From positions 6,696,001 to 6,760,000 of the forward strand of contig NZ_CP108002.1 of assembly GCF_041435055.1 (NCBI RefSeq): 64,000 nt of DNA, read 5' to 3'. Below the pieces are notes generated by a model. That model did no database searches and was not told where the DNA came from. It saw nothing but the letters and a program-made list of their open reading frames with translations. Numbering within the stretch: the stretch's first letter is position 1; each line of letters opens with the position of its first letter. Both the position numbers and the translations under genes were made by a program. Shown here piece by piece: positions 1-17,089 of the stretch. Source of the stretch: Streptomyces sp. NBC_00341. Lineage in GTDB: Bacteria > Actinomycetota > Actinomycetes > Streptomycetales > Streptomycetaceae.

Positions 1-435
1 GGCACCGACGCCGTCGGTAACCGCACCCGCGTCAAGGTCGTCAAGAACAAGGTCGCGCCGCCGTTCAAGCAGGCCGAGTTCGACATCCTCTACGGCCAGG
101 GCATCAGCCGCGAGGGCGGCCTGATCGACATGGGCGTGGACCACGGCTTCGTGCGCAAGGCCGGTGCCTGGTACACGTACGAGGGCGACCAGCTCGGCCA
201 GGGCAAGGAGAACGCCCGCAACTTCCTCAAGGACAACCCCGACCTCGCCAACGAGATCGAGAAGAAGATCCTGGAGAAGCTGGGCGTCGGCGTACGGCCC
301 GACGCGGCCTCCGCCGAGCCCGCAGCGGACGCGGCGGCCGGGACTGCCGCGGCCCCGGCCGACGGTGCGGCCAAGCCGGTGTCCGCTGCGGCCGGCAAGA
401 CCAAGCCGGCCAAGACGACGGCGGCCAAGAGCTAG
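1..435 (+). CDS. recA: RecA recombinase, C-terminal part (5' end outside window)
   Basis: The frame is open from the first base and ends with TAG at 433-435, giving the last 144 residues of RecA. The text [20 protein letters not shown] followed by REGGLIDMG is typical of the end of the RecA core and its C-terminal domain. RecA forms the ATP-dependent strand-exchange filament and stimulates LexA self-cleavage. After about residue 100 of the visible part comes an Ala/Pro/Lys-rich tail ([20 protein letters not shown]) ending in KS, a low-complexity extension usual in streptomycete RecA. recX begins 3 bp after the stop, so the two are almost certainly cotranscribed. The ATPase core and the promoter lie outside the window. 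Confidence 0.97.
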
Positions 436-438
436 ACC

Positions 439-1200
439 GTGACGCGTCGTACGGAGTGGCCGGGCTTCGCCGCCGAATCCGGCGAGGGCTCCGGCCCCGG
501 ATTCGCCGCCGCATCAACCGACGGAAGCACCTCCGGATCCGGCTCCGAGGCCGATCTCCCCTACGAACCGGCAGCGGGGGCCGGCAGGGGACGGGGTCCG
601 GGATCGAGTCCGGGGTTCGGTGAGGGGGCCGGGCGCCGTTCCCGGTCCCGTTCCAGAAGCAGCGGCTCCCCCTCCTCGTCGAGGGCCGAGAAGGGGGAGC
701 CGCGAGACCCGGTCGAGCAGGCGCGCAACATCTGTCTGCGGCTGCTCACCGGGACGCCACGCACCCGCAAACAGCTCGCGGACGCCCTGCGCAAGCGGGA
801 GATCCCGGACGAGGCGGCAGAGGAGGTCCTGTCGCGCTTCGAGGACGTCGGTCTGATCGACGATGCCGCGTTCGCCGACGCCTGGGTGGAATCCAGGCAC
901 CACGGACGAGGACTCGCCCGCCGCGCCCTCGTCCGCGAGCTACGGACCAAGGGTGTGGACGCGACGGTCATCGACGAGGCCGTCGGCCGGCTCGACCCGG
1001 ACCAGGAGGAGGCGACGGCGCGCGAACTCGTCGCGCGCAAACTCCGCTCCACGCGGGGGCTGGACCGCGACAAGCGGCTGCGCAGGCTTGCCGGCATGCT
1101 CGCCCGCAAGGGATACGGGGAGGGAATGGCTCTGCGGGTGGTGCGCAGGGCACTCGAAGAGGAGGGCGAGGACACGGAAGGGCTGGACGAACCCTTCTGA
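439..1200 (+). CDS. recX: Regulatory protein RecX with long disordered N-terminal extension
   Basis: The 253-residue product has a GTG start 3 bp after recA. RecX binds the RecA filament and modulates strand exchange, and the recA-recX order is the standard arrangement. The RecX three-helix repeats begin around residue 95 (DPVEQARNICLRLLTGTPRT, then RKQLADALRKREIPDEAAEE) and continue to the end, with the typical LRTKGVDATVIDEAV and MLARKGYGEGMALRVVRRAL segments. The first ~90 residues are Gly/Ser/Arg/Pro-rich and resemble no domain; compact RecX proteins of other bacteria lack this extension. No separate Shine-Dalgarno sequence is obvious in the 3-bp gap, so translation probably depends on coupling to recA. 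Confidence 0.95.
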   Translation: MTRRTEWPGFAAESGEGSGPGFAAASTDGSTSGSGSEADLPYEPAAGAGRGRGPGSSPGFGEGAGRRSRSRSRSSGSPSSSRAEKGEPRDPVEQARNICLRLLTGTPRTRKQLADALRKREIPDEAAEEVLSRFEDVGLIDDAAFADAWVESRHHGRGLARRALVRELRTKGVDATVIDEAVGRLDPDQEEATARELVARKLRSTRGLDRDKRLRRLAGMLARKGYGEGMALRVVRRALEEEGEDTEGLDEPF

Positions 1201-8340: not shown

Positions 8341-8690
8341 CCGAGGCCCCGGACGTAGAGGGGCTGGTAGACCGTCTCGTGGGTCACATGCATCTCCGGC
8401 CGGTCGGCGATGTGGATACGGCTGCTTCGCCCAGACAGCGCGCAGGGGCGGAAGGCGCTGCCACCACGAGCGGGCGGCACCACCGCGTTGATCGGTGGTG
8501 CCGCCTTGTTCCTGCCCGTCACGCCCCGGCCGTCACGCCACCGCTTGCCGGTCCGGACGTTGATGCCGATGACCTGCGCGGCCTCGGAGCGACGCATTCC
8601 TTGATCCACAAGCCGGAAGTATGCCTCCCGCTCATGGACCAGTTTCCTGGGTCCCTGCGACCTCCGGTCACCCCGGATCTCGAAGACGCG
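8341..8690 (-). pseudogene. IS30-family transposase remnant
   Basis: Read on the minus strand, the segment gives LVHEREAYFRLVDQGMRRSE, AAQVIGINVRTGKRWRDGR, then NKAAPP, RIHIADRPEMHVTHETVYQ and PLYVRG. These are recognisable pieces of IS30-type transposases (N-terminal helix-turn-helix, then the MHVTHETIYQALYV region). The part normally lying between the RIHIADR-like and the RPEMHVTHE-like motifs is missing, so there is an internal deletion. No start codon, catalytic DDE core or terminal inverted repeats were found. The 3' end fuses directly to the gluD fragment at 8340/8341. A hairpin-forming palindrome (GCGGCACCACC...GGTGGTGCCGC) lies near 8475-8505. Confidence 0.75.
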
Positions 8691-8713
8691 TCGTAACGAA
8701 CGAAGAGCGCTGA

Positions 8714-10087
8714 TCAGTCGCCGGACTTCACGGGCTCCAGTTTGATGCTGAAGTGTCGGAGGATCGGGGACTGGCCCGTAACCCGGTAGCCACGGACGGA
8801 TTCAGGATTCTTCGCGATATCCGCCAGGGTGGCGGCAACGTGGTCGTAGTGGCTGCGGGTGTAGACCCGTCGGGGGAGAGCCAGCCGTACAAGTTCGTAG
8901 GGCGCCGTCTTGACAGGGTTGCCGTGCTCGTCCTCTTCACCGAGGTACAGAGACCCCAGCTCCGCCGAGCGGATGCCTCCGCGCAGGTACAGCTCGCATA
9001 CGAGTGCGGTGCCGGGGTACTGGTGCGGGGGGATGTGCGGCAGGAGGCGTCCGGCGTTGAGGTAGAGGGCGTGCAGACCGGCGGGTTCCACGATGTCGAC
9101 GCCGGCCTCGCGGATGCGTGCGGCGAGATAGGCGGCTATGTCGGTACGCTCGGCGAGGTAGGCGGGCTCGGTCACTTCGAGGAGGCCGCGCGCCATCATC
9201 TCGAGGTCGCGTCCGGACAGACCGCCGTAGGTGGTGAATCCCTCGGTGGCGATGAGCAGACCCCCGCACCGCTCGGCGAGTTCGGGGTCCTTCAGGCCGA
9301 TGAAGCCGCCGATGTGGACGATCCCGTCCTTCTTCGCGCTCATGACGCAGCCGTCGGCGAGCCGGAAGGCTTCCTCGGCGACCTGGCGCGGGGTGCGGTC
9401 GGCGTAGCCGGGTTCGCGCTGGGTCACCAGCCAGGCGTTCTCCGCGAACCGGGCCGCGTCGAGGATCATCGGCACGTTGTGACGGCGGCACAGTTCGGCG
9501 GTGCGGTGCAGGTTGTCCATGCTGACCGGCTGGCCCCCGCCACCGTTGTTGGTGATGGTCATCAGCACGGCCGCAACGGGCGACTGGTCCGCGTTCTCCA
9601 GGGCCTGTTCGAGGGCGATCAGGTCGATGTTGCCCTTGAACGGAAAGTCGCTGTCGAGGTCCTTCGCCTCGGCGCAGGGCAGGTCGTACGCCGTGCAGCC
9701 AGTCAGTTCGACGTTGGCGCGGGTGGTGTCGAAGTGCGTGTTGGACAGCACACTCGTGCCGGGCCGCAGCAGCGAGGAGAAGAGGATGCGCTCGGCCGCG
9801 CGGCCTTGGTGGGCCGGCAGGATGTGGGGGTAGCCGGTGAGTTCGGAGACGACCTCGTGCCACCGGTAGAAGGAGCGGCTGCCGGCGTAGGACTCGTCGC
9901 CCTGCATTCCTGCGGCGAGCTGGTCCGCGGAGATGGCCCCGGTCCCGGAGTCGCTCAACAGGTCGATGGTGACTTCGTCGGCCCGCAGCTCGAAGGGGTT
10001 GTAGGCGACCCGCTTCAGCGCGGCTTCGCGCTCCTCCCTGGTGGTGAAAGCAAGAGGTTCTACGACCTTGATGCGGTAGGGCTCCAC
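8714..10087 (-). CDS. Tryptophanase / beta-eliminating lyase
   Basis: The 457-residue PLP enzyme belongs to the TnaA/tyrosine phenol-lyase family, which cleaves tryptophan (or tyrosine) to indole (or phenol), pyruvate and ammonia. Landmarks are SGTGAISADQLAAGMQGDES, the PAHQGRAAERILFSSL cofactor phosphate region, NNGGGGQPVSM, the ILDAARFAENAW segment with the PLP-binding Asp (about 210) and Arg (about 213), and MSAKKDGIVHIGGFI with the PLP lysine (about 253). Length is close to the usual ~460-470. The GTG start has a good GAAGGAA upstream. Its first 28 bp overlap the end of the prenyltransferase gene, implying translational coupling. Together the pair suggests supply and prenylation of indole. 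Tyrosine phenol-lyase activity cannot be excluded from sequence alone. Confidence 0.9.
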   Translation of the reverse strand: MEPYRIKVVEPLAFTTREEREAALKRVAYNPFELRADEVTIDLLSDSGTGAISADQLAAGMQGDESYAGSRSFYRWHEVVSELTGYPHILPAHQGRAAERILFSSLLRPGTSVLSNTHFDTTRANVELTGCTAYDLPCAEAKDLDSDFPFKGNIDLIALEQALENADQSPVAAVLMTITNNGGGGQPVSMDNLHRTAELCRRHNVPMILDAARFAENAWLVTQREPGYADRTPRQVAEEAFRLADGCVMSAKKDGIVHIGGFIGLKDPELAERCGGLLIATEGFTTYGGLSGRDLEMMARGLLEVTEPAYLAERTDIAAYLAARIREAGVDIVEPAGLHALYLNAGRLLPHIPPHQYPGTALVCELYLRGGIRSAELGSLYLGEEDEHGNPVKTAPYELVRLALPRRVYTRSHYDHVAATLADIAKNPESVRGYRVTGQSPILRHFSIKLEPVKSGD

Positions 10088-11316
10088 GTGAATTCCTTCT
10101 GTGCGGTGTGCGGGCTGACATGACCGACGGCCTGGTGCCCGATGTCCAGGACGCTCTGGGTGCTTTGCGCAGGCATCCAGGTGCCCCGCGGGTACTGCTC
10201 CTGCGGCGGCCGGACGCGGTAGGCCTCGGAACTCAGGTAGGCGGTGAGCCGGGGCGGCCGGTTGCGTTCGTACACCAGGGCCAGGTAGGCGATCAGCCCC
10301 ACGCCGTCGTCGAGGGTTCGCTCTGTGAGCGCCGCCAGACTCCGGTTCAGGACGGTGGGGTCCATACCGGCCCGGGTCAGCAGGTCTGTGGCGCGGGCGA
10401 GGGCCTCCTCGTCGTCGCGCACGTAGTCGCGACCGGGAATGTGGAGCGTGAAGCCGCTCGGGTTGCTGTCGCCTTCGGTGAATGAGTGGCAGGTGAGCAC
10501 CGGCCGCCGCACCAGTCGCAGGGTGTCGTCTCCGCCGTGCTGGGACGGCGCGAGGGAGCCCGCGGCCGCGTGGAAGAAGTAGCGGATGTCGGCCGCCGTG
10601 GCTCCGGAGGTACGGCTGAGCGCGCAGGCGTCATCGGCTGACATGTGCGGGTGTCTCACGTAGACCTTGACGCGGGGGGACGTCCAGGCGCCCAGGTCCA
10701 GAGCGAGGAACGGATAGCCGGTCCCCGGGGGCAGTTGCTCGAAGGCCTGGTCGTAGCCGAGCCGTCGCAGCGCCTCGTGCACGGTGCGGGCGGCGTTCTC
10801 CGGGCCGGAGGCGGAGGGGTTCAGGTAGACCTTGACCCCTGGGACCCCTCCGGCGCGCAGATCGAGCGCGTACCACAGGGCCAGGGGGCCCTGGGCCGCA
10901 GCGGGGAAGAACAGGTCGGCGACGGCGTCGAGTTGGTCGGTGGCGAAGCCCCAGCGGGCGCCCATTTCGCGGATGACCGCAAGCCCGGCGCGGCCGCTGT
11001 CGACCATGTCGCTGTGGGCCCACCCGGGCTCCACGAGCACTCGCAGGGCCGGGGCGGTGTCCGGAGCGCTGGCGAGGGAGAACTCGACGGGGGAGTGGTC
11101 GTCGGAGAGGAAGGTGGGCGACGCCGGTGGCAGGGACAGCGGCCGGTGGGCGGCGCCTGCGAGGGAGTCGACCAGAACCTGTCCGTACAGCTCGGTGTCC
11201 GCCTCGCTCAGGCCCACCGTGGCGGCCAGGCCCCGCAGTTGACCGAGTACGTGGTCGCCGAGCGTCGTCTCACCGGGGCTGGTTGCCGGTATGCCGGGGC
11301 CCCGGCGGGAGGTCAT
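10060..11316 (-). CDS. Aromatic (indole/tryptophan) prenyltransferase, DMATS family
   Basis: The ATG at 11316 gives 418 residues (MTSRRGPGIPATSPGETTLG), close to the ~370-420 usual for bacterial DMATS enzymes. Conserved diphosphate-binding and tyrosine-shield elements of the ABBA barrel are visible: GVKVYLNP (K162-x-Y164), SPRVKVYVR (R215-x-K217-x-Y219) and PPRLTAYLSS (R356...Y360). LRVLVEPG near residue 92 fits the first basic strand. These enzymes transfer a dimethylallyl group to an indole carbon without a DDxxD motif. Known streptomycete clusters pair such an enzyme with a tryptophanase and a flavin monooxygenase to make prenylated indole aldehydes or isatins; here the oxygenase is replaced by a nearby P450. 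The start overlaps the stop of a small ORF by ATGA. Regiochemistry and substrate are not predictable here. Confidence 0.88.
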   Translation of the reverse strand: MTSRRGPGIPATSPGETTLGDHVLGQLRGLAATVGLSEADTELYGQVLVDSLAGAAHRPLSLPPASPTFLSDDHSPVEFSLASAPDTAPALRVLVEPGWAHSDMVDSGRAGLAVIREMGARWGFATDQLDAVADLFFPAAAQGPLALWYALDLRAGGVPGVKVYLNPSASGPENAARTVHEALRRLGYDQAFEQLPPGTGYPFLALDLGAWTSPRVKVYVRHPHMSADDACALSRTSGATAADIRYFFHAAAGSLAPSQHGGDDTLRLVRRPVLTCHSFTEGDSNPSGFTLHIPGRDYVRDDEEALARATDLLTRAGMDPTVLNRSLAALTERTLDDGVGLIAYLALVYERNRPPRLTAYLSSEAYRVRPPQEQYPRGTWMPAQSTQSVLDIGHQAVGHVSPHTAQKEFTWSPTASRS

Positions 11317-11552
11317 CGTGTGCCTCGCACGTCGTGGCGCGTAACGCGTCCGGACGGTGCGGGAGTACGGGGACGTGCTCCGCCGACAAGGGAGGAGACG
11401 AGGGCCAATCCGCTGCCGGGAGCAGCGGGTATTCGGTCCTGCGGCTGGTCGGGTCCGCCGTCCCCGCACAGTTTCCGCCTGTTGGGGGTGGTGCGCTGTG
11501 AGCCCGGTCGGGCGCTCGCGGACGGGGGCGCGGAGATGCTTGCGAGGTCCAC
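11313..11552 (-). CDS. Possible small ORF (79 residues) coupled to the prenyltransferase
   Basis: A GTG at 11552 is preceded by a strong AAGGAGAGG five bases or so upstream and reads VDLASISAPPSASARPGSQR. The frame ends with TGA at 11313-11315 inside the prenyltransferase ATG (ATGA overlap). The first 40 codons have the high G/C third-position bias of real Streptomyces genes; the second half does not. The product is Pro/Arg/Ser-rich without a domain I recognise. It could be a genuine small protein, a leader peptide, or a chance frame with a good ribosome-binding site. A TTGACG element (11629-11634, minus strand) about 75 bp upstream may belong to its promoter, but no good -10 was seen. Confidence 0.38.
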   Translation of the reverse strand: MDLASISAPPSASARPGSQRTTPNRRKLCGDGGPDQPQDRIPAAPGSGLALVSSLVGGARPRTPAPSGRVTRHDVRGTR

Positions 11553-11668
11553 TGCCTCTCCTTCATCTTGTGTCACTCTAGACACTCCGCGCCGTCCTAC
11601 CCAGGAAGTTGATCTTTCATGCAGACTACGTCAACTGCCTGTGTCACATGCGTCACAGGGGGTGTGGG

Positions 11669-13015
11669 CTACTGGCTCGTCAGCCACTTCATGAAGCTGC
11701 TCCAGCGCCCCGCTTTGCCGGTGGGCTGCGGCGCCGCGGACGCGGGTGCGGCCGCGACCGGGGGTGCCTGGTAGCGGGGCACGGACGTCGGCTCCGGTGC
11801 GGCCGCGGCGCGCGGGGTGACTGAGCTGAACCGGACGGGCAGGGAGGCCAGGGCCCGGTTGAAGGGGCCGGGCCGCCAGGCGAGGCTGTCCGCGGGGACG
11901 GCGAGTTCAACGTCGGGCAGGGCGTTGAACAGCGTCTCCAGGCCCGTCAGGGCGATCAGCCTGGCCGGCTCCTTCGACGGGCAGGCGTGCGGGCCCGCGC
12001 TCCAGGCGAGGTGGCCGCGGGTGTCGGCACCGCGGTCCGCGAGCGCCGTGTTGGCCGCGCCGAAGGACACCAGCACCAGGTCACCGGCGCGCACCTTGTC
12101 GCCGGCCACTTCCGTGTCGACCACCGGGTAATGGGGCGCGTAGTTGGACATCGGCGCATTGCGCCACAGAGTGTCGTCCACAGCCTTGTCGAACTGCCCC
12201 AGGCGTGCGAACTCCTCGTTGGTCAGCATCGTGTAGAAGGCGTTGCCGATCAGGTTGCCCTCCGGCTCGCCGCCCGCACCGAGGAGCAGCACCAGCGTGT
12301 GCGCCAGTTCCTCGTCGTCCAGCTGCGCCGGATGCTGCATCAGGTAGGACGTGATGTCCTCCCCGGGCCGGGCGCGCTTGAGCGCCACCAGCTCGCTGAC
12401 CGCTCCGAGCAGGACCTGGCTGGCCGCCTCGGCGTTGACTCCGTCGAACATGCCGGAGATGCCGAACAGCACCCGGTCACCGATCTCTGCCGGGCAGCCG
12501 AACAGCTCGTTGAACACGTACAGCGGGAGCTGCTGGGCGTAGTCGCGGAGCAGGTCGGCGCTGCCGCGGGAGCTGAACTGGTTGATCAGGAACTGGGCTG
12601 CCTGGCCGACTATCCGGCTCAGCCGCTTGTTGCTGACGCGGGCGAAGGAGTCGGTGATGGCCTGCCGCAGCCGCACATGCTCGGCGCCGTCGGTGAACAT
12701 CGCGTTCGGCCGGTAGCCCAGCAGCGGCAGGACCGGGCTGTCGGGGCGGATGCGGCCCTCAGCCAGTGCACGCCAGCGGCGTGAGTCCTTGCGAAAGGTC
12801 GTCGAATCCTGCAGCAGTTCCAGAGCCGCGTTGTAATCGGTCACCAGCGTCGCCTCCACGCCAGGGGCGATGGTGACCGGAGCGGTGGGGCCGAGCTCGC
12901 GCATGTAGCGGTAGTACGCGTGCGGATTGGCAGCGAACTCCGCGCTGTCCAGGGGTATGCGCTGCCCGCTGCCGTGTGCGGGGCAGCCGGGCGGAGGTAC
13001 AGAGGGGGTTGTCAT
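11669..13015 (-). CDS. Conservon cytochrome P450, CYP157-like, without ExxR motif
   Basis: The 448-residue P450 starts at the ATG 13015, overlapping the cvnD stop by 4 bp, and is the fifth gene of the conservon (CvnE/RarE position). The heme-ligand loop is AWSAGPHACPSKEPARL with Cys345. The K-helix sequence is AVDDTLWRNAP where AVEELLR-type sequence is expected, so ExxR becomes DTLW. The I-helix reads LGAGGEPEGN, so the conserved acid/alcohol Thr is replaced. Loss of ExxR is known for the CYP157 family of Streptomyces, which is encoded in conservons. The C-terminal ~50 residues are an Ala/Pro linker ending in GRWSSFMKWLTSQ, a possible amphipathic membrane anchor. Whether it is a normal monooxygenase is uncertain. 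The usual partner, a CYP154, is absent. Confidence 0.87.
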   Translation of the reverse strand: MTTPSVPPPGCPAHGSGQRIPLDSAEFAANPHAYYRYMRELGPTAPVTIAPGVEATLVTDYNAALELLQDSTTFRKDSRRWRALAEGRIRPDSPVLPLLGYRPNAMFTDGAEHVRLRQAITDSFARVSNKRLSRIVGQAAQFLINQFSSRGSADLLRDYAQQLPLYVFNELFGCPAEIGDRVLFGISGMFDGVNAEAASQVLLGAVSELVALKRARPGEDITSYLMQHPAQLDDEELAHTLVLLLGAGGEPEGNLIGNAFYTMLTNEEFARLGQFDKAVDDTLWRNAPMSNYAPHYPVVDTEVAGDKVRAGDLVLVSFGAANTALADRGADTRGHLAWSAGPHACPSKEPARLIALTGLETLFNALPDVELAVPADSLAWRPGPFNRALASLPVRFSSVTPRAAAAPEPTSVPRYQAPPVAAAPASAAPQPTGKAGRWSSFMKWLTSQ

Positions 13016-13617
13016 GCGTGCTCCAGGTCGGCGCGCTCGTGCAGATAGCGGACCAAGGTGATCAGGGCGTCGACGGACGACTTCTCGTCGCGTGCGTCGA
13101 TGGTGACGATGGGGGTGTCGGGCAGCAGGTCGAGTGCCTCCCGGACTTCCTCCGGGGTGTGGACCGTACTGCCGTCGAAGTGATTGATGGCCACGGCGAA
13201 ATCGAGGCCGTAGCTCTCGACCAGATCCATGACGTCGAAGGAGTCGGCCAGGCGCTCGGGGTCCACGAGGACCAAGGCGCCCAGCGCTCCGCGGGCCGTG
13301 TCGTCCCACAGGCTCACGAAGCGCTGCTGTCCGGGGGAGCCGAACAGATACAGAACGATGCGCTCGCTCAGCGTCAGCCGGCCGAAGTCCAGGGCGACGG
13401 TGGTGGTCGTCTTTCCCTGAACCCCTTTGAGGTCGTCGACGCGCTCGGAGAGCGTCGTCATCCGCTCCTCGGTGGACAACGGCGTGATCTCGGAGAGTGA
13501 GCCGATCAGGGTGGTCTTGCCGACGGCGAAATGCCCGACGACCAGGATTTTCACTGCAGTCTGCTGTGCGCCGCTGGGCACGTAGGCATCCTCAGACAGA
13601 GAGAGCCTTGAGGCCAT
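13012..13617 (-). CDS. cvnD: Conservon GTP-binding protein CvnD
   Basis: The 201-residue small GTPase belongs to the MglA/Ras-like conservon family. The P-loop is VVGHFAVGKTTLIGSLSE, the switch region includes GKTTTTVALDFGRL (G2/G3 area) and LFGSPGQQRF, and the base-recognition motif is NHFD in place of NKxD, which is typical of CvnD. The ATG at 13617 overlaps cvnC by 26 bp and its stop overlaps the P450 start by 4 bp. In S. coelicolor, Cvn proteins form membrane-associated complexes compared with eukaryotic G-protein modules. CvnD is the nucleotide-switch component. Confidence 0.93.
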   Translation of the reverse strand: MASRLSLSEDAYVPSGAQQTAVKILVVGHFAVGKTTLIGSLSEITPLSTEERMTTLSERVDDLKGVQGKTTTTVALDFGRLTLSERIVLYLFGSPGQQRFVSLWDDTARGALGALVLVDPERLADSFDVMDLVESYGLDFAVAINHFDGSTVHTPEEVREALDLLPDTPIVTIDARDEKSSVDALITLVRYLHERADLEHA

Positions 13618-13987
13618 CGAGCACCTCCTTGAGCAAGGCCTTGTTGGTGGGACGGGCCGAGGGCACCGGCGCCCGGGTCACGAGATAGCCCCCCTGGGAG
13701 AGGGAATTGAGCAGCACCTTGACCACCCCGAGCGGCAGCTGGGAGTGCGCGGCGATCTCAGCGACCGAGAGGTAGCCACTGGAGCACATCTCCAGGATCT
13801 GCTGCTCCTCGGGCGAGAGCCGCTGGGGGCGCTGCTGCTCGTCGGTGGCCGTCGTAACGAGAGTGATGAGGGCGAACTCGCCCTCATCGGGCAGGTCACG
13901 GCCACGGGTGATGACGTAGGGCCGGACCAGTTCTCCGGCCTCGGACACGAACTCGGGCTCGGGCTCGGGACGGCCGGGTTCGGTCAT
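13592..13987 (-). CDS. cvnC: Conservon protein CvnC (DUF742)
   Basis: The 131-residue DUF742 protein carries the hallmark segments ELVRPYVITRGRDLPDEGEF and SPEEQQILEMCSSGYLSVAE, then IAAHSQLPLGVVKVLLNSL (a winged-helix-like core). The N-terminus is acidic and Pro-rich. It overlaps cvnB by 4 bp (ATGA) and cvnD by 26 bp. Such proteins sit between the roadblock protein and the GTPase in conservons and may link the two. Its biochemical role is not established. Confidence 0.93.
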   Translation of the reverse strand: MTEPGRPEPEPEFVSEAGELVRPYVITRGRDLPDEGEFALITLVTTATDEQQRPQRLSPEEQQILEMCSSGYLSVAEIAAHSQLPLGVVKVLLNSLSQGGYLVTRAPVPSARPTNKALLKEVLDGLKALSV

Positions 13988-14382
13988 GAGGTGACCGTGT
14001 CGCCGCGAAGGCCGGTCGACATCGCCTTGCCGAGCCGGCTGACCAGCTGCTGCATCCGGTACGTGATGTCCTGCATGTCGACCTCGGCCGACGCGGCCAC
14101 GGCAAGGTAGCTGCCGCCGCCCGCAGCGTTCAGGAACACCCAGCCCCCGTCGAACTCGATGAGGGTCTGGCGCCAGTTCGCTCCGTGCTCACCGCAGAAG
14201 AAGCTGACGGCCCGGCTGAGTGACTGCAGGCCGGAGACGGCGGCGGCCACCTTGTCGGCATCGCCTCTGTCTATCTCCGTAGTACGGGACATCTGGAGGC
14301 CGTCGGCAGAAATCAGGACCGCGTGGAGAGCATGCGGAATCTGCAGCGCGTCCTCAAGCATCCAGGACAGGTCGTCGCTCAC
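13984..14382 (-). CDS. cvnB: Conservon roadblock/LC7 protein CvnB
   Basis: The 132-residue roadblock/LC7 domain protein begins with GTG at 14382 (VSDDLSWMLEDALQIPHALH) and overlaps the end of cvnA by 4 bp. AVLISADGLQMSRTTEIDRG and AVAASAEVDMQDITYRMQQL are typical roadblock strands and helices. By analogy with MglB, it probably acts on the GTPase CvnD, as GAP or scaffold. This is inferred from family, not shown. Confidence 0.93.
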   Translation of the reverse strand: MSDDLSWMLEDALQIPHALHAVLISADGLQMSRTTEIDRGDADKVAAAVSGLQSLSRAVSFFCGEHGANWRQTLIEFDGGWVFLNAAGGGSYLAVAASAEVDMQDITYRMQQLVSRLGKAMSTGLRGDTVTS

Positions 14383-15578
14383 GGGGCATCGAATCCTTCG
14401 TGTGAATCGGCAGCGTTGTCATCTTCGGCGGCCGGTACCCCCGCACCTCGGCCGCTGAGAGTGCCACGCTGAAACGCGCCCATGGCCGCCACCCGTGCCT
14501 CTGCCGACCGGGCCGGCGGCGCTTCATCAGACCTGCGGTCGCCGTTCGGCACGAGCGCCATGCCGCGCTTGTTCCGTCGCCGGGGCAGCCCGCCCTCTGC
14601 CGCCGCAGGAGCCGGACCGCGGCTCGCGGCAGCGGCATTGACCTCTTGCGTGGAAGTGGGCGTCTTGGGCTCTGGCATCTCGGTCAACAACTCCTTCGGC
14701 ACCATCACCACAGCGCGGACGCCGCCGTAGGGAGAGGTGCTGTCGATGGCGACCGTGAACCCGAACCGCGCACACAGGGCACCGATCACCGCGAAACCGA
14801 ACGCGGGAGGGTTGCCGAGCTCCGAAACGCTCACCACGGACCCGCTGGACAGCAGAGCGGTGGCGTTCGTCCGTTCTTCCTCGCTCATGCCGACACCGGC
14901 GTCGTCGATCACGATGCAGATGCCCCGGGGCACCGTCCGCACCTCGACCTCGACCATGGTGGACGGCTCGGAATAGCTGGTCGCGTTGTCGAGCAGCTCG
15001 GCCACCGTCAGCGCGATCGGTTCGACGGCACGGCTGGTCACCGCGAAATCGACCCGTGAGGCGATTTCGATGCGCTGGTAGTGCCGGATACGGCCCTGCG
15101 CTCCGCGGATCACGTCATAGACCGATGCGGCCTCCCGCTGCCGGCCGAGCCACCCGCCGCACAGCACCGCAATGGACTGCGCACGCCGGTTGAATTGCGA
15201 GTTCATGTGGTCGATATCCAGCATGTCCCGCAACACGGCCGAGTCGCCGTACTTCTTCTGCAGCCCGGAGATGGCCCGCTGCTGCTCCGCGGCGAGGCCC
15301 TGAAGGGTCCGCATGGCCGACTTCAGTACGGTGTTTGTGGCCTCCTCCCCCTCTTCCTTGGCCCGGCGGACCACCTCGTCGTAGCCGCTGCGCAGCTCGA
15401 TGACGGTGGACTCGAAGTCGGCGGCCCTGCCCTGCGATGCGGTCAGCTCACCTTGAACGCCCTGCTTCTGACGACGTAGCGCCTTGATCTTTTTTCGCTG
15501 GCGAGTGATTACCGTGGCGGCGACAGCGACGCCGACGGCAAGCGCCCAGACTGTCGGATCCTGCCAAAAATTCGTCAT
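14379..15578 (-). CDS. cvnA: Conservon histidine-kinase-like membrane protein CvnA
   Basis: The ATG at 15578 yields 399 residues (MTNFWQDPTVWALAVGVAVA). One membrane helix lies near residues 9-23, followed by a basic stretch and a coiled coil (about 27-90). The central region IDHMNSQFNRRAQSIAVLCG is the dimerisation-like segment lacking a standard phospho-acceptor His box. The GHKL ATPase domain (about 180-300) has ELLDNATSYS (N-box), DDAGVGMS (G1) and GFAVIGALCARFG (G2-like). The Pro/Ala-rich C-terminal 90 residues are low-complexity. CvnA is the putative sensor/nucleotide-binding component upstream of CvnBCD. A longer N-terminus is open but lacks a ribosome-binding site; GAGAG lies just before the chosen ATG. 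Confidence 0.92.
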   Translation of the reverse strand: MTNFWQDPTVWALAVGVAVAATVITRQRKKIKALRRQKQGVQGELTASQGRAADFESTVIELRSGYDEVVRRAKEEGEEATNTVLKSAMRTLQGLAAEQQRAISGLQKKYGDSAVLRDMLDIDHMNSQFNRRAQSIAVLCGGWLGRQREAASVYDVIRGAQGRIRHYQRIEIASRVDFAVTSRAVEPIALTVAELLDNATSYSEPSTMVEVEVRTVPRGICIVIDDAGVGMSEEERTNATALLSSGSVVSVSELGNPPAFGFAVIGALCARFGFTVAIDSTSPYGGVRAVVMVPKELLTEMPEPKTPTSTQEVNAAAASRGPAPAAAEGGLPRRRNKRGMALVPNGDRRSDEAPPARSAEARVAAMGAFQRGTLSGRGAGVPAAEDDNAADSHEGFDAP

Positions 15579-16119
15579 GTGACTCTCTATTGAGCGGCTG
15601 GAGTCCAGCTCTCGAAATCTGTCCAAGCGGACCCTCGGCTGTGGGCAGACGTCACCGCCCGGAGAGCCCCCCTGGCTGTATCCATGCCAAGGCGAAAGCT
15701 CACGTGGCATGTGCACGCGAGCGTATCACCAGACGATCATGAGATTCTGTCAAGTCCGCCACGTCGGTGCCCCGTTAGCGAGAAACGCATGTTCATGTCA
15801 GTGAGGAAGCTGTGTCTGCGAGGTGGAGGCCCACAGTGGCGGAGCGCGTACCGTGCCGCTCAGCCGTGTGGCACCTGGGTTCTTGCAGCTCTGCGGCGCA
15901 TCTCGCCTTGTAGCGGGCTGACGAGGTGATACAGGGCAGGGCGAGTGTCATCCGACCAACAAGCTTGCCCAGGAAGCCAGATGGCCGATTCGAGAGCGGG
16001 CTACGGGCGGCGGCACGAGCTACGACTCAGGACATGTGACCGCAGCCTCACGGTTTGAGTTTTTTGCCGCCGGCAGCCTGTCCAGAACGCGGCGACGGCG
16101 GCCCGGCCCGGCACCGACG
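15579..16119. other. Intergenic region upstream of cvnA, right part of the island
   Basis: About 540 bp contain no gene I can support. The part 15717-16060 is visibly less GC-rich than its surroundings. It should contain the cvnA promoter, but no convincing -35/-10 pair was found. Just before the right repeat there is a second copy of the short sequence ACGCGGCGA (16086-16094, again at 16120-16128), which could have promoted a small deletion or recombination at the island edge. No integrase, att-like tRNA end or IS sequence was recognised. Confidence 0.5.
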
Positions 16120-16125
16120 ACGCGG

Positions 16126-16159
16126 CGAGGGGCGGTGGCGTATGCGCCACCGCCCCTCG
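16126..16159. terminator. Terminator of the gluABCD operon (right copy)
   Basis: A perfect 15-bp stem with a TATG loop lies 21 bp beyond the gluD stop. Its sequence is identical to the hairpin at 8131-8164 left of the island. As a symmetrical GC-rich hairpin it may work in both directions. Confidence 0.9.
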
Positions 16160-16180
16160 GGGACTTCTGTTGCTCAGCCG

Positions 16181-17089
16181 TCAGGAGGCGGACGAGTCCA
16201 TGATGACCACCGGCGCACCGACCGTCTCGGGCGCGCCCCCGGGGCCGGTGCCCACGACGGCGCCCGTGCTCTTCTTGGCACGCCGGAGCCGCCGCTCCAG
16301 CCAGCTCGCGAACGAGGTGAGGCTGAAGTTCAGCGCGATGTAGATCACGGCGATGATGGTGAAGCACGCGATGGTGTTGGCGCCGTAGTTCGCTGCCATC
16401 GGCCGGACCGACGCCAGCAGCTCGGGGAAGCTGAGCACCGCGCCACCGAGGGCGGTGTCCTTCACGATCACCACGATCTGACTGACGATCGCCGGGAGCA
16501 TGGCGGTGACCGCCTGCGGCAGCAGTACGAAGACCATGGTCTGGCCCTTGCGCATGCCGATCGCCTTGGCCGCGTCCGTCTGCCCGGAGGGGAGCGTCAG
16601 GATGCCGGCCCGCACGATCTCGGCGAGCACCGATGCGTTGTAGAGCACCAGGCCCGTGATTACCGCGTACAGCAGCCGGGTCTCCGGGTCGAGCTCGGTG
16701 TACTCGGAGTACGCCTGGTTCGCGATGACCATCAGGATCAGAACCGGGATGGCGCGGAAGAACTCCACGACCACAGCGGAAGGCGCTCGCATCCACCGGT
16801 GCTCCGAGAGCCGGCCGATCCCGAACAGCGCACCCAGCGGCAGCGCGATGATCAGGGCGAAGAACGCCGCCTTGATCGTGTTCTGGAAGCCCGGCCAGAT
16901 GAACGTCTCCCACGGCTGGGAGCTGGTGAAGAAGGGCTTCCACTTGATCCAGTCGAGCTGGTGCTTCGACGCGAGACCGTCGTACACCCACCACACCACG
17001 GCCGCGGCGACGAGCACGAACAGGACGGTGTAGAGGATGTTCCGCCGCTTGGCGCGTGGCCCCTGGGCGTCATAGAGGACGGAACTCAT
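16181..17089 (-). CDS. gluD: Glutamate ABC transporter permease GluD
   Basis: The 302-residue HisM/GlnP-type permease has about five membrane segments (VLFVLVAAAVVWWVYDGL near the N-terminus, FFALIIALPLGALFGIG, LLYAVITGLVLYNASVLAEI and others). The EAA loop is seen as LAEIVRAGILTLPSGQTDAA and AIGMRKGQTMVFVLLPQAV. It overlaps gluC by 4 bp (ATGA). The C-terminal tail after RRAKKST is soluble and variable; this tail is the part that differs from the truncated copy at 8125-8340. With GluC it forms the membrane channel for glutamate uptake driven by GluA. Confidence 0.94.
   Translation of the reverse strand: MSSVLYDAQGPRAKRRNILYTVLFVLVAAAVVWWVYDGLASKHQLDWIKWKPFFTSSQPWETFIWPGFQNTIKAAFFALIIALPLGALFGIGRLSEHRWMRAPSAVVVEFFRAIPVLILMVIANQAYSEYTELDPETRLLYAVITGLVLYNASVLAEIVRAGILTLPSGQTDAAKAIGMRKGQTMVFVLLPQAVTAMLPAIVSQIVVIVKDTALGGAVLSFPELLASVRPMAANYGANTIACFTIIAVIYIALNFSLTSFASWLERRLRRAKKSTGAVVGTGPGGAPETVGAPVVIMDSSAS

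Follow-up and report, generated by a model that had tools for sequence, protein, structure and literature searches.

The 350-bp gap between a cytochrome P450 gene and a DMATS-family prenyltransferase gene of Streptomyces sp. NBC_00341 appears, judged from its sequence, to be an unannotated and widely conserved control region, and no description of this region was found in the literature searched, the gene cassette around it being already known. The gap lies in a 64,000-nucleotide stretch of contig NZ_CP108002.1 (positions 6,696,001 to 6,760,000 of the forward strand), hereafter called the window, whose minus strand carries the conservon genes cvnA, cvnB, cvnC and cvnD, the P450 gene, the DMATS gene and the tryptophanase gene tnaA consecutively. 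It is considered fairly probable that a leader with its own promoter couples, and perhaps attenuates, DMATS expression, that the conservon with its degenerate P450 is the regulatory module, and that the leader was kept while the tryptophanase was exchanged for a flavin monooxygenase (FMO). The gene order is conserved, and so are, within the gap, a promoter-like site, a ribosome-binding site, the frame relation between leader and DMATS, and a hairpin.

Sequences compared

A DMATS match (E ≤ 0.001) was found in 84 of 392 genomes of the genus, from which 65 wider stretches were fetched, comprising the stronger matches and two near 30% identity, the other matches of about 30% being left out. The gap was compared in 56 distinct sequences, after five exact repeats had been dropped: 28 from Type A clusters (with a tryptophanase, the window included) and 28 from Type B clusters (with an FMO), the two types being those of Ozaki 2013 (PMC3617294). 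A later set was obtained by a search of the class (394 genomes, 11 matching at E ≤ 1e-30) and a search of the family (297 genomes, 58 matching at E ≤ 1e-70); the 52 loci fetched were reduced to 50 by removing the repeats L182 and L189, and 46 of these, namely 45 conservon-linked loci and the contig-cut L187, were used as the later loci. The later-fetched loci span the genera g1, g139, g143 and g150. Near relatives recur in both sets, and all counts are counts of loci and not of independent events.

Promoter-like site

The pattern G[CT]AT-N16-GGGTA, with exactly 16 nt between its two parts, was found in 55 of the 56 gaps. SigB-family promoters have forms such as GCATAA-N14-GGGTAT (Table 2 of PMC8346170), and the window sequence GCATGA-N14-GGGTAG fits this form with a GNNT-type -35 element, a GGGTA -10 element and a spacer of about 14 nt. 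The sequence GCATGAN14GGGTAG occurs at two sites in the own genome (one of them here) and a reversed control also gave two, so that the weight of the promoter prediction rests on conservation and not on rarity. The strict site was present in 32 of the 46 later loci, and the 260 nt ahead of cvnA gave no GNNT-N14-17-GGGTA match in any of 52 scanned regions. Because the gap has a promoter-like site of its own, it is probable that DMATS-tnaA forms a separate or an additional transcription unit, though a conserved one. A preliminary description of the locus had named as one refutation a gap separating unrelated transcription units and products; the unit made probable by the promoter-like site is a conserved one. 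In some Type B gaps (e.g. L049 and L053), a second inverted repeat lies right after GGGTAG, over the expected transcript start, and is a possible operator.

Leader open reading frame

The start codon of a leader open reading frame (ORF) stands at one aligned column, behind a purine-rich stretch, in all 56 gaps. The leader ends with NTGA, where NTG is the in-frame DMATS start, in 52 of them, and is fused in frame to DMATS as an N-terminal extension in the other four (L056, L060, L061 and L062); the +1 frame, used as a control, was coupled in one of the 56. The non-fused leaders vary from 31 to 83 codons with the frame relation kept throughout, and in L070 and L108 the frame of the hairpin is shifted while the leader start and stop are still in frame. 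Because this frame relation is conserved, translation of the leader ORF is strongly suggested. The possible small ORF of the preliminary description is present between the P450 and DMATS genes (Table 1).

The leader occurs with both partner enzymes, tryptophanase and FMO. Of the later loci, 30 have a coupled leader, 14 a fused one and two none (present in 44 of 46); the fixed rule gave 25 coupled and 13 fused leaders, and a non-blind second look added six, five of them coupled (L155-L158 and L171) and one fused by eye with a frame break left (L163), leaving L162 and L165 leaderless. L044, L095 and L096, which have no P450 gene or are cut by a contig end, were checked apart, and the promoter-like site, hairpin, ribosome-binding site and in-frame NTGA were all present. 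A leader was found in none of the 14 DMATS loci without a conservon (L066-L069, L071-L073, L075-L077, L179-L181 and L186), a count that includes L077, which is nested among the conservon-linked DMATS sequences, and from which L078 and L079 (28-30% identity) were left out. Single elements do occur in ten conservon-less loci, namely a ribosome-binding site (L066, L068, L072 and L073), an in-frame NTGA (L068, L073, L075 and L077) and loose promoter-like matches inside DMATS (L071 and L076), and none of the ten has a promoter-like site plus a hairpin; L078 likewise has a loose promoter-like match. For the window leader, the only copy searched, no match was found in the protein collection at E ≤ 10, three candidates sharing short words with it.

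Hairpin within the leader

A core hairpin of the GATACCCGCC/GGCGGGTATC type (CCCGCC-N5/6-GGCGGG) was found within the leader in 44 of the 56 gaps, with a 6-nt space between the arms in 43 of the 44, and its strict form in 32 of the 46 later loci. Folding at the hairpin, done for 51 of the 56 gaps, gave a median of -21.8 kcal/mol and a median z-score of -5.1. The GGCGGG arm is followed by a median of 6 T in 12 bases, some of which lie within the stem. Pairing was retained at stem pair -5 in 27 of 38 distinct sequences, against a mean of 18.3 after shuffling, and at the loop-closing pair in 20 of 37, against 16.3. Among 39 leaders with an IPAxxGGY-type motif, ATA stands at the Ile/Val position in 37 and TAT at the Tyr/His position in 37, while in the seven genes of the window ATA makes up 5 of 71 Ile codons and TAT 7 of 58 Tyr codons; the near fixation of these rare codons points to selection on nucleotides. 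The hairpin is degraded in the clade to which the window belongs (Table 1 gives the window's copy).

Other functions considered for the leader were rejected. Against a conserved peptide, or a precursor of a ribosomally synthesized and post-translationally modified peptide, the IPAxxGGY motif is the hairpin translated in rare codons, and L070 and L108 keep the ORF and move the hairpin out of the IPAxxGGY frame, so that selection is unlikely to act on the peptide. No Trp run for a Trp-codon attenuator is present, and the Trp seen in another frame comes, by eye, from GTGGA around the start codon. For control by bldA, a TTA codon was found in six leaders, which is not above a rough estimate. No Rfam match was found for window positions 8500-16200 at E ≤ 1, and at gathering thresholds seven relatives gave three matches (one riboswitch in L092 and two tRNAs), none of them to the gap element. 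TnaC of the enterobacterial tna operons is likewise encoded by a leader ORF upstream of a tryptophanase operon; unlike it, the present leader has no Trp run, crosses a hairpin, overlaps the next gene and also precedes FMO-type clusters without tnaA.

Proposed mechanism and competing explanations

In the mechanism proposed, DMATS would prenylate L-tryptophan, the C6 position being suggested only by analogy with strain SN-593, and TnaA would cleave the prenylated product to a prenylindole, which may then be oxidised by unlinked enzymes. The promoter in the gap, of SigB type by sequence, would express DMATS-tnaA as a transcript starting with the short leader; ribosomes would load at the strong leader site, translate across the internal hairpin and reinitiate where the DMATS start overlaps the leader stop, and translation of tnaA would follow via the GTG 28 nt inside the DMATS end. 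Leader translation would gate the output of DMATS and TnaA and, with a strong hairpin and a T-rich tail, might also prevent early termination. Promoter use, coupling, attenuation and control by the conservon are the predicted parts of this mechanism.

Several observations weigh against it. The strict core hairpin is absent in 12 of the 56 gaps, including the window and its closest relatives. Pairing at the outer stem pairs (-6 to -8) does not rise above that of shuffled sequences, the near-invariant core pairs are uninformative on covariation, and a DNA operator would show the same invariance and 6-nt spacing. No terminator was called in either of the two regions tried, the window gap and L012, and the T run lies partly in the stem. 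In 39 of the 56 gaps chance alone leaves the +2 (DMATS) frame open, so that the fused class taken alone is weak, and the rule for the later loci, unlike that for the gap set with its fixed column, took whichever candidate start produced coupling. The whole leader region is gone in L162 and L165 (genus g150), in which the P450 stop overlaps the DMATS start (ATGA), as a natural leader-less variant; eight of the 14 fused later loci also belong to g150, and those eight are without the strict hairpin. L063 has kept the P450 and the leader and lost cvnABCD. Finally, the pair of promoter-like site and hairpin is absent at the ten other conservons of the own genome, one loose promoter-like match lying far downstream (L116).

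The gap might also serve as the cis-acting output site of the conservon, a GTPase module with the heme protein as its sensor, which would act either on leader translation or on the SigB-type promoter, so that the translated leader with its hairpin would determine prenyl-indole production; such a site would have arisen once with the conservon and stayed through the FMO exchange. The conservon is, from its neighbourhood and shared history, the obvious candidate for a controller of the gap, and a low probability is given to this extension. If true, it would add a new type of leader control to the secondary metabolism of actinomycetes. The way in which conservons influence gene expression is poorly defined (PMC8510531), and here a conservon adjoins a small biosynthetic unit whose control region is conserved and unannotated, which makes the question tractable in laboratory Streptomyces with one promoter and one leader. 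The control region in the gap may also bear on the apparent silence of such clusters, the Type B genes of S. lividans being reported to have an extremely low native expression (Ozaki 2013, PMC3617294).

Alternatively, the palindrome could be a DNA operator, bound by a regulator such as CvnC or an unlinked repressor, within a coupled ORF and with no attenuation. The near invariance of the core with its fixed arm spacing, the lack of a called terminator in the two regions tried and the outer pairs at the level of the shuffles are in line with an operator, but the covariation at pair -5 and at the loop-closing pair, the stems of up to 10-14 bp with T-rich tails in many loci, and the location of the palindrome downstream of the promoter-like site and inside an apparently translated frame count against it, and an operator is judged unlikely. 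As the mark of a genome-wide regulon the palindrome was rejected, 13 sites being found in 12 of 101 genomes, seven of them at DMATS loci, against 10 in a reversed-pattern control.

A similarly low probability is given to the conservon and the biosynthetic pair being functionally independent neighbours that travel together, for which the separate promoter-like site in the gap, with none in the 52 regions upstream of cvnA, and the loss of cvnABCD with retention of the rest in L063 can be cited. Against such independence, the two are conserved together in about 100 loci from four genera, while the flanks of the window are unshared, and the nested L077 lacks both conservon and leader.

Conservon P450

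The conservon P450 is CYP157-like, with the heme Cys retained and the canonical EXXR lost; conservons with a cvnE P450 are of the RarABCDE type. The window protein gave no Pfam match at E ≤ 0.001, and NCBIfam P450 models matched it below their cut-off, the best with 87.8 bits. In 56 P450 sequences compared the heme Cys is kept in all, the Arg of EXXR is replaced by Trp in all, the Thr of the I-helix AGxxT is replaced by Pro in 54 and the adjacent acid is kept in 55. The gene accompanies both Type A and Type B clusters and is absent from L095 and L096, and a P450-like gene also stands behind four of the ten other conservons of the own genome. The degenerate P450 is most likely a part of the signalling module and not of the chemistry.

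The preliminary description had proposed that this P450 could take the oxygenase role in place of the FMO and make a new prenyl-indole, a proposal that has in its favour the adjacent, co-oriented gene with its retained heme Cys and I-helix acid, but that was rejected as very improbable given the loss of the EXXR Arg and the I-helix Thr, the presence of the gene with TnaA and FMO types alike, its absence from L095 and L096, and the P450-like genes at four other conservons of a genome with a single DMATS match. In S. coelicolor, conservons 9-12 carry P450 genes in the same arrangement, cvnABCD followed by the P450 (cvnE) (PMC8510531); the window locus differs from them by the adjoining biosynthetic genes and the leader in the gap.

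Cluster types and chemistry

The window locus is a seven-gene Type A conservon/indole-prenyltransferase cassette whose chemistry is already described. It has a DMATS that is IptA-like by its family matches and solved relatives, a tryptophanase and a four-gene conservon, and no FMO gene in the cluster. According to the text of Ozaki 2013 (PMC3617294), all retrieved clusters with IptA homologues contained a conservon and some an added P450, and 6-dimethylallylindole-3-carbaldehyde from strain SN-593 is cited for Type A. The Type A cluster with iptA of Streptomyces sp. SN-593 shares the conservon, DMATS and tryptophanase with the window, the P450 being present in some clusters, and in the text seen no single sentence gives a P450 to a Type A cluster (PMC3617294). 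The prenyl-indole chemistry of the preliminary description was thus of the right family, and the combination it had taken as undescribed is, as a gene set, essentially published there. The main text of that paper does not contain 'leader', 'attenuat', 'intergenic' or 'small ORF', and has 'promoter' only for a vector. No description of the leader for these clusters was found in the titles and abstracts of the open literature searched, a search that did not cover the SN-593 paper, in which an earlier mention is possible. A literature search likewise found no solved relatives that are informative on DMATS regiochemistry.

An FMO-like gene (PF00743) lies downstream on the opposite strand in all 28 Type B loci of the gap set, in all 34 Type B loci of the later set, and also in L095 and L096, and was found in none of the 38 fetched stretches of Type A relatives (0/27 and 0/11, respectively). 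With no linked FMO in the Type A stretches, any oxidation would require an unlinked enzyme. No FMO-like match lies near the window in the own genome; about 1.3 Mb away (G000:C1:8011860-8013149) lies an FMO gene whose product shares 43% identity with the Type B FMO and is a candidate prenylindole oxidiser. The Type B cluster of S. coelicolor is SCO7467/SCO7468 (5-dimethylallylindole-3-acetonitrile); the Type B loci examined, none of which was identified as that of S. coelicolor, share the conservon, the leader, DMATS and usually the P450 with the window and differ by the FMO gene in place of the tryptophanase.

When 120 DMATS sequences were placed in a tree with a single conservon-less sequence as the root, the conservon-linked sequences form one clade with a support of 0.88, L077 included, some inner nodes being weak. 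Type A is a basal grade, and Type B forms one derived clade (0.89) that also holds L063 and L187, which are not labelled Type B. Rooted in this way, the tree points to a probable single exchange of the partner enzyme, tryptophanase for FMO, on a constant conservon-DMATS frame.

Genes of the locus and conservation of the cassette

The families of the genes were assigned by Pfam and NCBIfam profile searches and by comparison with solved relatives (Table 1), and the consecutive arrangement on one strand given in the preliminary description was confirmed in coordinates, order and family matches. The window CvnD is among the 11 strong CvnD matches (50-100% identity) of 12 in the own genome. DMATS matched Trp_DMAT with 35.2 bits (above the cut-off of 25) and TIGR03429 with 126.8 bits (below the cut-off of 163.85), and the solved relatives shown share a VEFS stretch with it; TnaA matched PRK13238 with 619 bits and has a SAKKD stretch in common with the solved tryptophanase.

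Table 1. Genes and predicted control elements of the locus, in window positions.
Feature	Position	Strand	Basis or remark
cvnA, sensor-kinase-like ATPase	14379..15578	-	HATPase_c; 53-95% identity to relatives' matches
cvnB, roadblock/LC7	13984..14382	-	Robl_LC7, PF03259
cvnC	13592..13987	-	DUF742, PF05331
cvnD, small GTPase	13012..13617	-	ATP_bind_1
Conservon P450, cvnE-type	11669..13015	-	Heme Cys kept, EXXR Arg replaced by Trp; sequence match to solved P450s
SigB-type promoter-like site GCATGA-N14-GGGTAG	11597..11622	-	G[CT]AT-N16-GGGTA conserved across gaps
Leader ribosome-binding site GAAGGAG	11558..11564	-	Sequence
Leader ORF, 79 codons, GTG start at 11552, TGA overlapping DMATS ATG	11313..11552	-	Frame conservation
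Hairpin within leader ORF	11410..11428	-	8-bp stem, z-score -2.2, no T run
DMATS-family indole/tryptophan prenyltransferase	10060..11316	-	Trp_DMAT, TIGR03429, solved relatives
tnaA, tryptophanase, GTG start	8714..10087	-	PRK13238; 28-nt overlap with DMATS

The check proposed in the preliminary description, co-occurrence in other genomes, gave a conserved co-localisation: in one scan of named genomes, all seven genes were present in the same order in 12 of 12 loci from 10 Streptomyces strains. When 21 ORFs of the window were compared with 22 Type A loci, six of them (cvnA, cvnB, cvnC, P450, DMATS and tnaA) recurred in all 22, one flanking ORF was weakly matched (26-33%) in six loci and another in one. 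The cvnD gene lay outside this comparison, displaced by a longer overlapping frame, and was seen in the other locus listings except L047.

Some further observations were made on the relatives and on the own genome. In S. alfalfae the cluster stands on three contigs of one assembly (L005, L006 and L013) with identical match values, possibly an assembly duplication. A second, diverged P450 (28-29% identical) is encoded about 6 kb upstream of cvnA on the other strand in one Type A group (L054, L092, L097-L099, L101 and L103). The riboswitch of L092 is a c-di-AMP riboswitch (RF00379; positions 296-463, minus strand) near the cluster. At 6.48 Mb of the own genome (L112), two conservons stand in tandem.

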